Origin: a virus
DNA: 35,340 bases
Direction: 5' to 3' (one strand)
Virus record (IMG/VR): IMGVR_UViG_3300028806_000027
Span: 1 to 35,340 of that record
In this document: one piece after another, positions 7,370 through 14,328 of the stretch
Position numbering within the stretch: the first letter of the stretch is position 1
How the letters are laid out: the number at the start of each line of letters is the position of its first letter
The notes under the pieces: generated by a model
The model's input: only the letters and a program-made list of their open reading frames with translations
Database searches by the model: none
Told to the model about the DNA's origin: nothing
Position numbers and translations under genes: made by a program

Positions 7370-7879
7370 ATGAGCCAGGATGCTGAGTTAGATCGGTGGG
7401 GCAGTAAATACAAAGATGGGATGTGTGATGAACTCATTGAGATGTTTTCTAAAGGCAAAACACAAGCTCAGTTTTGTGCCAAACATTCAATAGCCACTGA
7501 TACTTTCCAAAAATGGCGTAAGAGCCACAAAGCATTCGATAAAGCATGTGAGTTAGCTCATAATAAAGCACGTGATTATTATGATGAGATGCGTCATGAA
7601 AACATGTTAGATCCGACTGTAAACTGGGGTACATTTAATAAAATGTATAGTGCTCGCTTTAATGTAGCTGACAAACGCACAGTGCGCGTGAAGGGCCTCG
7701 GCAAAGCAAAAGATGAGCGTGAAATGCTCAAATGCTTAAACAAAGCAGTCGATGAAGAAGAATTAACGCCCGATGAAGCACAAAAACTATCATCCCTGAT
7801 AGATATTAGTTTGAAGGTTAAGCAGACTTGTGAATTAGAAGATAGAATTGTTACTCTTGAGAACGGTCAGAAAACTTAA
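7370..7879 (+). CDS. Small terminase-like HTH protein
   Basis: 169 residues. An N-terminal HTH at ~25-65 (ELIEMFSKGKTQAQFCAKHS, then IATDTFQKWRKSHKAFDKAC) is followed by a helical segment ARDYYDEMRHENML and an acidic C-terminal helix region. The same order is seen in phage small terminases that recognise the packaging site and form rings. GGGG before ATG serves as ribosome site. It opens the plus-strand packaging/structural region and overlaps the convergent gene at 7876 by 4 nt. The large terminase is ~4 kb downstream with accessory genes between, so the assignment rests on the HTH pattern and position. Confidence 0.65.
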   Translation: MSQDAELDRWGSKYKDGMCDELIEMFSKGKTQAQFCAKHSIATDTFQKWRKSHKAFDKACELAHNKARDYYDEMRHENMLDPTVNWGTFNKMYSARFNVADKRTVRVKGLGKAKDEREMLKCLNKAVDEEELTPDEAQKLSSLIDISLKVKQTCELEDRIVTLENGQKT

Positions 7880-8175
7880 ACATGCTTCCAGCTTGCAATC
7901 AACATACCTAATGCAAACAAAACCAACGGCATACATATAGCACCGATTGCTAAGTTATATAAATTATGTATTTTAGTATCTATTTTCATATCTAGATTTT
8001 GTATTTTAGTATCAATTTTTGTATCTAGATTCTGTATTCTTACATCTAATCTTTCGATAGCTGCTTCAATACTAGAAAATTTACTATTTTGCTCTGATAA
8101 ACGTAGCTCGTGATGTCTAAGTTTTACTTCATGTTGTATCCATGCCTCATCGTGGATCGGTTCTATTGTGCTCAT
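7876..8175 (-). CDS. XhlA-like coiled-coil membrane protein
   Basis: 99 residues. The N-terminal half is soluble helix. Residues ~40-70 repeat IQNLDTKIDTK / IQNLDMKIDTK / IHNL as a coiled coil, and one membrane segment (~75-95, AIGAICMPLVLFALGMLIAS) ends in WKHV. This order (coiled coil then C-terminal membrane helix, ~90-100 residues) matches XhlA-type haemolysin/holin accessory proteins. It is a monocistronic minus gene among plus genes, with GAGG upstream and its own control region at 8211-8251. A holin-like or superinfection-exclusion role is possible. Confidence 0.55.
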   Translation of the reverse strand: MSTIEPIHDEAWIQHEVKLRHHELRLSEQNSKFSSIEAAIERLDVRIQNLDTKIDTKIQNLDMKIDTKIHNLYNLAIGAICMPLVLFALGMLIASWKHV

Positions 8176-9753: not shown

Positions 9754-9783
9754 TTATAGTTATGGTGAAATTAATAACTATAA
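9754..9783 (+). promoter_or_regulatory. 10-bp inverted repeat just upstream of the collagen-like gene
   Basis: TTATAGTTAT (9754-9763) and ATAACTATAA (9774-9783) are perfect complements with a 10-nt spacer. The repeat ends 1 bp before AGGGA, the ribosome site of the gene at 9798. It could act as an operator or as an mRNA hairpin affecting translation. Confidence 0.5.
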
Positions 9784-9797
9784 AAGGGATATTTACT

Positions 9798-10685
9798 ATG
9801 TCTACTAACATGAAAGGATGTTGTACAGGACCTGCGGGCCCGGTCGGTCCGCAAGGCGTCCAAGGATTGCAAGGTCCATCTGGCGCGGATGGTGCAGCAG
9901 GTGCTCAAGGGCCGGCTGGTCTAAATGGTGCTCCGGGTGTGAACGGAGTAGCTGGACCAGTCGGCCCGATGGGTGCTGCTGGCGTCAACGGAGCTAATGG
10001 CCTTAATGGTGCTAATGGTGCTCAAGGCCCACAAGGTGACCAGGGCGCAGCTGGCGTTAATGGCGCAGCCGGGTTAAATGGTGCTCCTGGCTTAGCTGGC
10101 TTGCCAGGTGCTCAAGGCCCGATGGGATTACAAGGCCCTCAAGGGTTACAAGGTTTACAAGGCGTTCCTGGTGACTGTGTTAACTGTCCGTGCGAGGGCG
10201 CAGGCGTTGAATATGCAGAAGTTTACTCTAATGCTATTCAAAATCTAGCGGTTTCCCCTGGACTTAATATGCCCGGTGGTGTTGTAATATTAGAAAAAAC
10301 TGTGGTGGCTACTGCTAATATAGACGTCTCCAAGGCAGCTACAACAGGTCAAATCACGGTAAACCGAAAGGGTTGGTATGATGTTGCGACCGGTATTTGC
10401 GGCGCCTTAAATCCTGTGCCTTCTCCGTTGCCATGCTGGACATTGTCGTTGTTTAAAAATGGCGTATTAGTTCCAGGATCAACATTTGCTAATCAGACTA
10501 TTAGTCCCGAACAGGCATCTAATGAGATTGTTGCAGATGTTTATTTATATTGTGCAGCTGGTGACGTCTTAGCTTTAGCAAGTACGAGTACAAATCCGGT
10601 AATCTTATCATCTCCTACGCTAGGCACTAATGCTCAGCCGTCTTGTGGTTATTTAAAAATCAGTTCCCTTCAGCTTGACGTCTAG
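9798..10685 (+). CDS. Collagen-like fibre protein
   Basis: 295 residues from ATG 9798 (GGGA upstream, the start at 9762 lacks a site). Residues ~10-125 are Gly-X-Y repeats ([23 protein letters not shown] types) that form a collagen triple helix. A Cys-rich hinge follows ([12 protein letters not shown], with CC near the N-terminus too). The last ~160 residues look like a C1q/BclA-type beta domain: [20 protein letters not shown], then [16 protein letters not shown] and [14 protein letters not shown], which trimerises and may bind sugars. Phages use such proteins as head or tail fibres and decoration. It sits among packaging genes rather than with the tail cluster and is flanked by a hairpin on each side. 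Confidence 0.85.
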
Positions 10686-13292: not shown

Positions 13293-13895
13293 ATGAAATG
13301 TTCAATAGATATATGTGATAGAGAAGCTAAAAAGAGAAATCTTTGCCTTGCGCATTATGAAAGATTCATAAGGAATGGAGAAGATTTTGATAGGTCGCCA
13401 ATTGTAGATGTTAAATGCATGAAATCAAAGTTTACATCCAAAATTGGGATGCCAAACGATAATGGTTGCATGGAATGGCTGGGATGGAAAAACAAACATG
13501 GTTATGGGAAGTTCAGTGTAGGTTCTAAATACGCATTTGCACATAGATATTCGTATGAATTTCATATTGGTGCGATACCAGTTGGATTGTTTGTTTGTCA
13601 TTCGTGCGATAATCGTGGGTGTGTAGCACCGCAGCACTTATGGTTAGGAACTAACATAGAAAATCAACAAGATATGCGGAATAAAGGAAGACAAAATCAT
13701 CATAGAGGGCCATTACCCAACATCCAGGGATTAAAGCATATCAATGCCAAACTAACTGAAGACAAAGTTAAAGATATAAAAATTAAACTACTCAAAGGCA
13801 TTAAAGGGACAATAATCGCAAGAAAGTATAATGTATCTGATCAGACCATATATGACATAAAAAATGGCAAAAATTGGAAGCATGTCAATATTTAG
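13293..13895 (+). CDS. HNH homing-type endonuclease
   Basis: 200 residues. The N-terminus has a zinc-knuckle-like CSIDICDREAKKRNLCLAHY, typical of phage HNH proteins. The HNH_3-type core runs NGCMEWLGWKNKHGYGKFSV, YAFAHRYSYEFHIGAIP, VCHSCDNRGCVAPQHLWLG and NIENQQDM (His ~110 and the CHSC...CVAPQHL zinc/active region). The C-terminus has a DNA-binding HTH (GTIIARKYNVSDQTIYDIKN). It begins 12 nt after terL with a weak ribosome site, the usual place for free-standing homing endonucleases that cut the neighbouring gene in related phages. Confidence 0.88.
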   Translation: MKCSIDICDREAKKRNLCLAHYERFIRNGEDFDRSPIVDVKCMKSKFTSKIGMPNDNGCMEWLGWKNKHGYGKFSVGSKYAFAHRYSYEFHIGAIPVGLFVCHSCDNRGCVAPQHLWLGTNIENQQDMRNKGRQNHHRGPLPNIQGLKHINAKLTEDKVKDIKIKLLKGIKGTIIARKYNVSDQTIYDIKNGKNWKHVNI

Positions 13896-13905: not shown

Positions 13906-14044
13906 AATAACTATGTTTACAATTTATAAAAAACAAAGCCCCAATAAAATTAGAGATATAAATATTGCTATTGAGTATCATAATACTGGCCAAAGTCTAC
14001 GTACGATAGGGGATAAATATGGTATGTCCAGTTCTAGAGTTTAT

Positions 14045-14265
14045 CATAATACGTCGTAAAACCTCGTGCTTTAGGTCGAGGATATAAGACGCGAGTAAAA
14101 AAGTTTGCAAAGTAAATAATCTTTGCTATGCTGGTTCTTGTCGCCGATAACCAAGACGATCTACCGCCGGGCAGGCGGGATGTAATGCTTGTGGAGTGGA
14201 ATGCATAAGCACCACTGTGAAGCAAGAACCGGAATCACCTTCCTTTAGGTCGGTGAGGATGTCAA
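14045..14265 (+). mobile_element. Non-autonomous IS200/IS605-like element, copy 2
   Basis: From 14052 to 14265 it is identical to 2570-2783 except for two single-base differences (A for G at 14060, G for C at 14131). Left hairpin 14062-14081, right hairpin 14235-14256, GAAT at 14232-14235, end TCAA at 14262-14265. It is in the same orientation as copy 1 and is also preceded by GTTTAT (14039-14044). No transposase is encoded. Confidence 0.72.
14133..14265 (+). ncRNA. Omega-RNA-like scaffold (copy 2), candidate
   Basis: It carries the same GGTTCTTG/CAAGAACC closing stem (14133-14140, 14223-14230), internal hairpins and tnpB-like terminal codons as copy 1. The sequence that would serve as guide starts at 14266 (cgatttaaaatgctaa) and differs from copy 1, as expected for insertion-site-defined guides. 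Activity would need a TnpB supplied by the host. Confidence 0.5.
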
Positions 14266-14328
14266 CGATTTAAAATGCTAAACTTAGCGTAAACATTAAC
14301 TTATTAACACCGTAAAGGAGTGATTCAA

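Follow-up and report, generated by a model that had tools for sequence, protein, structure and literature searches.

Background

Among the closest described systems are short derivatives of the IS200/IS605 insertion sequences. The PATEs of Haloquadratum walsbyi carry near-terminal palindromes of the IS605 type and are too short for a transposase (PMC3119063, 2011), and, according to the cited part of that work, they have neither inverted terminal repeats nor a target duplication, some of them being IS605-type elements after deletion of the core, with the ends beyond the palindrome as their most variable part. A PATE-like element of about 271 nt in Halanaerobium hydrogeniformans, described in the cited part of PMC7290912, consists of a left hairpin, no tnpA, the last 58 nt of tnpB and a complete right end. 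This is also the plan of the two elements reported here, although the Halanaerobium element occurs once, next to full elements in a bacterial chromosome, has other end sequences and is not discussed as an RNA in that part of the paper.

For the gene-less derivatives, mobilisation in trans is assumed (PMC7290912, PMC3119063). TnpA, which binds a hairpin at each end of the element, inserts it on the 3' side of a short motif (PMC7290912), and a right-end RNA, of which about 16 nt of flank are the guide, leads TnpB to DNA beside the same motif, i.e., to the element-free site (PMC8612924), as far as the cited portions of these works go. In ISDra2 the guide RNA of TnpB (reRNA) comprises the 3' end of tnpB, the right end and about 16 nt of flank beside the TnpA motif, a layout like that of the present elements; there the motif is TTGAT, tnpB lies inside the element and the function was shown by experiment (cited part of PMC8612924), whereas the elements described here have TTTAT and no tnpB. 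Gene-drive behaviour of tnpB-bearing elements has been reported in plasmids (PMC11870625), and homing to uninserted loci has been proposed for TnpB (PMC10278001), each in the cited part of the source.

Repeat pair and element boundaries

The window, i.e., the whole stretch of phage DNA analysed (35,340 bases), contained in a repeat search one direct-repeat family with two 214-nt copies at 2570-2783 and 14052-14265 (99% identity), which lie on the same strand at a spacing of 11,482 bp. By alignment, the internal differences between the 214-nt copies are exactly two, an A/G in the foot of the left hairpin and a G/C in the promoter-like box, and the flanks of the two copies are unrelated on both sides. 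The repeat search and the alignment thus agree with a preceding sequence-only reading, which had counted two differences in 214 bases at a distance of about 11.5 kb in the same orientation and had noted that the flank in the guide position differs between the copies. Chance is ruled out for a near-identical repeat of 214 nt. The remaining direct-repeat family of the window is a 33-nt tandem pair alone (7956-8021, 82% identical, within the minus-strand ORF 7876-8175), and no inverted repeats of at least 30 nt were found in the window.

The boundaries of the elements follow the rule of the family, according to which an element starts directly after TTAT and ends in TCAA. The autonomous elements of Arsenophonus apicola plasmids, which carry both tnpA and tnpB, start right after TTAT, nine bases 5' of CGTAAAACC, and end in GGATGTCAA. 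Among 51 distinct left-end contexts from viral contigs and plasmid loci, with repeats of one insertion counted once, TTAT stands 9 or 10 bases before CGTAA in 47, and four do not fit. In the window the distance from TTTAT to CGTAA is 9 bases in copy 1 and 10 bases in copy 2; TTTAT occurs at 0.29% of the plus-strand positions, so that two such placements by chance are unlikely, and the elements are therefore delimited as follows.

2559-2563, + strand: TTTAT insertion motif and presumed TAM of copy 1, present also in the uninterrupted gene of the related phage G007
2564-2783, + strand: element copy 1, 220 nt, delimited by the repeat, the alignment, the family boundary rule and the empty site in a related phage
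14040-14044, + strand: TTTAT insertion motif and presumed TAM of copy 2, by the TTAT rule of the family
14045-14265, + strand: element copy 2, 221 nt, from the first base after TTTAT through TCAA, delimited by the repeat, the alignment and the boundary rule

The start of copy 2 at 14045, as proposed earlier, is thus right by the family rule. Within these boundaries, 214 of the 220 or 221 nt are alike, the exception being the left tips, i.e., the first 9-10 nt, which read TATCCGCGT in copy 1 and CATAATACGT in copy 2 and, unlike the rest of the element, do not resemble each other.

Internal layout

From left to right, copy 2 is composed of the tip (10 nt; 9 nt in copy 1), the left hairpin region, an A/T-rich stretch with a -10-like box, GGTTCTTG, the scaffold, the right hairpin and GGATGTCAA.

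14055-14091, + strand (copy 1: 2573-2609): left-end hairpin region, laid out as the left ends of elements with tnpA and tnpB and paired in the DNA fold
14124-14132, + strand: weak extended -10-like box, TGCTATGCT (copy 1: TGCTATCCT)
14133-14140, + strand: GGTTCTTG, pairing with CAAGAACC at 14223-14230 in the DNA fold
14176-14265, + strand (copy 1: 2694-2783): scaffold of the omega-RNA type including the right hairpin (14236-14255), by the covariance models R1 and R2
2784-2799, + strand: putative guide position of copy 1 (phage flank), by analogy; 14 of the 16 bases match the empty site of G007
14266-14281, + strand: putative guide position of copy 2 (phage flank), by analogy with the reRNA and its flank of about 16 nt (cited part of PMC8612924)

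At its threshold, the promoter scan did not return the box at 14124-14132. An extended -10-like box is present in four of the six sequences compared, both window copies included, and its stricter form in three of the six; the box was picked after looking, and its shuffle figures are no test. A similar box of the Acinetobacter plasmid element (L069) lies outside the stretch scanned. The DNA fold of the whole element gave a z of -3.3, while the RNA fold of 14138-14265, a stretch that cuts the arm 14133-14140, is not exceptional (z -1.5).

Scaffold

The covariance model R1 was built, mostly on tnpB 3' ends, from seven sequences with the window excluded, namely six elements bearing or derived from tnpB and a short element of Arsenophonus nasoniae. 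Both copies were matched by R1 over its full length (37.3 bits, E 6.9e-9), partly on account of the right hairpin, and by the core model R2, from which the right hairpin was omitted, at E 6.7e-4, all these E-values being rough by the tool's own statement. The one further match of R1 in the window is weak and falls on the left hairpin of copy 1; full-length matches were absent from the 62 related-phage loci. R1 also matched an annotated TnpB gene that was not among its training sequences (L137) and other tnpB-bearing loci, in each case at the 3' end. In plain nucleotide alignment of the scaffold, one of eight comparators stood clearly above shuffles, with shuffles scoring as well in 3 of 500 cases for Arsenophonus and in 12 and 21 of 500 for the next two comparators. 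Searched as a protein, the presumed TnpB tail retrieved no TnpB; its five matches, all weak (E 2 to 7) and without a TnpB annotation, were in plasmids, and phages gave none.

No Rfam family matched at its cut-off. A sub-threshold match to the Rfam family HgcC at 14162-14278 (17.7 bits, E 0.056, with a cut-off of 50) was observed, and the 3' end of the HgcC consensus resembles a right end of the IS605 type; judged from sequence likeness, HgcC might be worth checking as a relative of omega-RNA.

Similar elements in plasmids and other viruses

The end hairpins of the copies match those of autonomous IS200/IS605 elements (tnpA and tnpB) on Arsenophonus apicola plasmids, and the element ends also match IS200/IS605 ends in other viral contigs. 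The A. apicola elements share with the window copies the left and right hairpins, the TTAT and TCAA boundaries and a scaffold similar to the 3' end of tnpB, but they carry both genes and a single tip in eight copies, whereas in the window copies the genes are absent and the tips differ. All eight plasmid left ends share the tip CAAATCCGC, and one of them is joined directly to a right end. This terminal-only remnant (L071, reverse strand, about 11716) is like the terminal-only elements of Haloquadratum in the cited part of PMC3119063. Tips are constant within groups of near-identical viral elements, and free tip variation as a general habit of the family was accordingly not borne out.

Short elements of the same plan were also encountered elsewhere. 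That of the phage-like plasmid pArsFIN15 of Arsenophonus nasoniae (L134, 224 nt; also L073) resembles the window copies in the succession of left end, extended -10-like box, scaffold and right end, in the lack of genes and in its residence on a replicon with a terminase gene, and differs in being single, clearly different in sequence and longer by about 36 nt of scaffold before the right hairpin. A gene-less element of the plan is carried by two viral records, L085 (244 nt, from 7393 onward) and L108 (reverse strand), and further ones by an Acinetobacter plasmid (L069, 327 nt) and by L126 (392 nt). The short elements of L134, L085, L069 and L126 are all matched by R1. Of the six positions at which the elements of L085 and L108 differ, four belong to one stem, as two compensating pairs. 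A stretch of an E. coli plasmid (L136) that lacks an annotated TnpB gene aligns with 97% of the A. nasoniae element at 70% identity. Elements of this plan were rare in the collection, scans at two gap sizes yielding one and two viral stretches. No near-identical copy of the window element was found in viral_contigs or genome_contigs by exact or degenerate core patterns, and in the 42 related phage records the element gave short matches only (best E 0.007).

Interrupted genes and empty sites

2414-2840, + strand: gene A, split by copy 1; 2414-2563 and 2784-2840 joined encode 68 aa, with homologues found
13913-14292, + strand: gene B (small HTH-like protein), probably split by copy 2; 13913-14044 and 14266-14292 joined encode 52 aa

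With copy 1 removed, gene A reads through 68 residues, while as present it enters the element and stops after 63. In the related phage record G007 (gene in locus L127) gene A is uninterrupted and aligns gap-free with the joined gene of the window, the protein across site 1 being ...SKFYFKSKQEAINAM... in G007 and ...PGVYIKSKQECIDAF... in the window. In the empty site of G007, TTTAT holds the same position, and of the 16 bases that follow, 14 match the flank of copy 1, the two mismatches being at guide positions 1 and 3; this is the best guide match among the related loci examined, and the G007 contig was the only match of a degenerate empty-site pattern in viral_contigs. The joined site aligns to the empty homologue without extra bases, so a target duplication is absent at site 1. 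Weaker homologues of gene A running across site 1 are found in L058 and L028 (E 0.004) and L009 (E 0.2). Gene A is interrupted by copy 1.

An element start at the first shared base (2570 and 14052) was considered and rejected, since the homologue of gene A is gap-free only with the cut directly after TTTAT, with which the family rule agrees; an open frame is also left by a cut at 2570, as worked out by hand, so the reading frame alone is not decisive.

Joined across copy 2, gene B yields SSSRVYRFKMLNLA, followed by a stop. The match of its homologues in L030 and L010 ends at the first restored residue, and TTTAT is absent at the corresponding position in both, so that site 2 rests mainly on the family rule and the interruption of gene B by copy 2 is probable. 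Thus, of the gene interruptions proposed by the sequence-only reading and the empty sites that it named for comparison, those of copy 1 are seen directly, with TTTAT kept in G007, while the interruption by copy 2 is derived from the boundary rule, and an empty site 2 did not emerge from the gene B homologues. The gene order near copy 2 is that of the relatives, from the terminase through gene B to the later gene at 14320. An HNH_3 endonuclease gene (13293-13895, + strand) lies between terminase and gene B, whereas in L030 and L010 gene B directly follows the terminase; from this arrangement, the HNH_3 gene looks like a second selfish insertion at about 150 bp from copy 2.

Genes of the phage

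The window encodes a terminase, a portal and major head proteins. The Pfam domain Y1_Tnp and the Pfam TnpB zinc domain were each found in none of 43 records, i.e., the window phage and 42 relatives, whose records are possibly fragments, and tblastn with the TnpA and TnpB of Arsenophonus had no match in the window or among the 62 related-phage loci, of which 42 entered the analysis as whole records and the other 20 as stretches only. The sequence-only reading was therefore correct in that no transposase is encoded.

A RecT-like annealing protein (125-967, - strand) and an exonuclease VIII-like protein (1175-2173, - strand) form a recombination pair of the phage's own, and these proteins could act as agents of repair or gene conversion. 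A collagen-like triple-helix repeat protein is encoded at 9762-10685 (+ strand). The only relative of the terminase in genome_contigs, 78% identical, is on a 34-kb contig, of a length like that of these phages, filed under a Planctomycetota MAG (L133), which is probably a phage contig binned with that MAG and hence no evidence of the host.

Identity and mode of spread

The copies are read as non-autonomous IS200/IS605 elements of the PATE kind with an omega-RNA scaffold, presumably mobilised in trans, with a probability of about 0.86 that covers identity and mobilisation in trans jointly and leaves guide-RNA function outside. The copies are not autonomous IS200/IS605 elements, neither TnpA nor TnpB being encoded. 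With the Haloquadratum PATEs the copies share the end palindromes, the lack of inverted terminal repeats and of a target duplication and a length too short for a transposase, and their insertion is motif-directed; the Haloquadratum elements belong to archaeal chromosomes and are not treated as guide-RNA carriers in the cited part of PMC3119063, whereas the window copies are in a phage. The features of the omega-RNA type comprise a sequence and structure like the 3' end of tnpB together with the right end, finishing at the element boundary. The layout required for a guide, i.e., TTTAT, element and flank, is present at both sites, and the use of the flank as a guide is suggested by analogy. The view of the repeat as a mobile element gains support from the ends of the IS200/IS605 type and the motif boundaries. 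The further expectation that two copies in one phage would be surprising without a transposase does not hold, gene-less derivatives of this family being thought to move in trans (cited parts of PMC7290912 and PMC3119063).

By the proposed course, an internal deletion would have removed tnpA and tnpB and kept the two hairpins, the possible promoter stretch and the scaffold, which would originally have been the 3' end of tnpB; the copies may have been moved as single strands ('peel and paste') by a TnpA of the host or of a coinfecting element. The differing tips, which stand against one tip in 8 of 8 autonomous relatives, count against the PATE reading. They also mean that the pair is not a simple copy, since identical tips would be expected if one copy had derived from the other by transposition. 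The simplest readings of two nearly identical bodies behind different tips are that gene conversion would have homogenised two related insertions, or that the copies came from a pool whose members vary at the tip, for which the variable ends beyond the palindrome reported for PATEs are a precedent (cited part of PMC3119063). Of the recent movement within the lineage or gene conversion that the near-identity had been said to imply, movement is thus left as one option only, and gene conversion stays among the options.

Under this identity, it is an evenly balanced prospect that the element is an inert passenger, the scaffold being a leftover of the deletion, with TnpA moving the element in trans through its hairpins and the RNA idle. 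Such a passenger is favoured by the need of TnpA for the ends only and by the existence of terminal-only elements (cited part of PMC3119063), as well as by the remnant at L071, in which the two ends are directly joined, the weak promoter box and the unexceptional RNA fold. On the other side, the scaffold fits R1 over the full length, the same part is kept in four independent-looking short elements, and the two compensating pairs in one stem between L085 and L108 suggest a maintained structure, though in another element.

A more active role is entertained tentatively: by analogy with TnpB systems, the transcript would be a guide RNA, with its guide taken from the phage sequence after TCAA, that directs a host TnpB to cut element-free phage copies at TTTAT and the adjoining flank, whereupon repair would insert the element and spread it among phages of the same cell. 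As guides, the two copies would use the 16 nt that follow 2783 and 14265, respectively, and each guide would match the empty site of its own copy. Scaffold, motif and flank stand in the required order, the gene drive in plasmids (PMC11870625) and the proposed homing (PMC10278001) offer precedents in the cited parts of these works, and the RecT-like and exonuclease VIII-like proteins could perform the repair; yet in the closest empty site, that of G007, two of the first three guide bases are mismatched, two unlinked copies could result equally from transposition, and TnpB is absent from the phage record. It is less likely than not that a guide RNA alone, with neither nuclease nor transposase, is a mobile gene drive in phages, in which guides from its own flanks lead a host TnpB to cut and recombination copies the element; two unlinked sites would then have been fixed in one phage and the bodies kept alike by gene conversion.

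A regulatory RNA or another repeat of the phage's own is very improbable, for all that the structured sequence stands in two copies on one strand, because the ends have their counterparts in IS200/IS605 elements of plasmids and of other viral contigs, the repeat is absent from the related-phage loci and gene A is interrupted. An assembly duplication, i.e., a short-read artefact across a 214-nt repeat longer than many short reads, was likewise rejected as very improbable, since the copies differ at the tip, at two internal bases and in the flanks, the sequences on either side of copy 1 join into one gene with an uninterrupted homologue, and the relatives have the genes near copy 2 in the same order.

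Significance

Gene-less elements with IS605 palindromes were already described as PATEs in 2011, and the combination of a tnpB tail with a full right end is on record (cited parts of PMC3119063 and PMC7290912). Less usual is that a single phage carries two such elements in which the guide-RNA scaffold can still be recognised. Meers et al. (Nature 2023) reportedly discuss gene-less IS200/IS605 elements with guide RNAs, and solo omega-RNA elements are therefore not claimed here as unreported.

Even if inert, the pair is a clean natural case with exact boundaries, an empty site with TTTAT in a related phage and a scaffold detectable without a nuclease gene, and the counts of tnpB genes understate the occurrence of such scaffolds. 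Should the RNA prove functional, TnpB would serve gene-less elements as a resource open to parasitism, and coinfecting phages would provide an easily tested setting for RNA-guided homing, with one transcript, one TnpB and one empty site.
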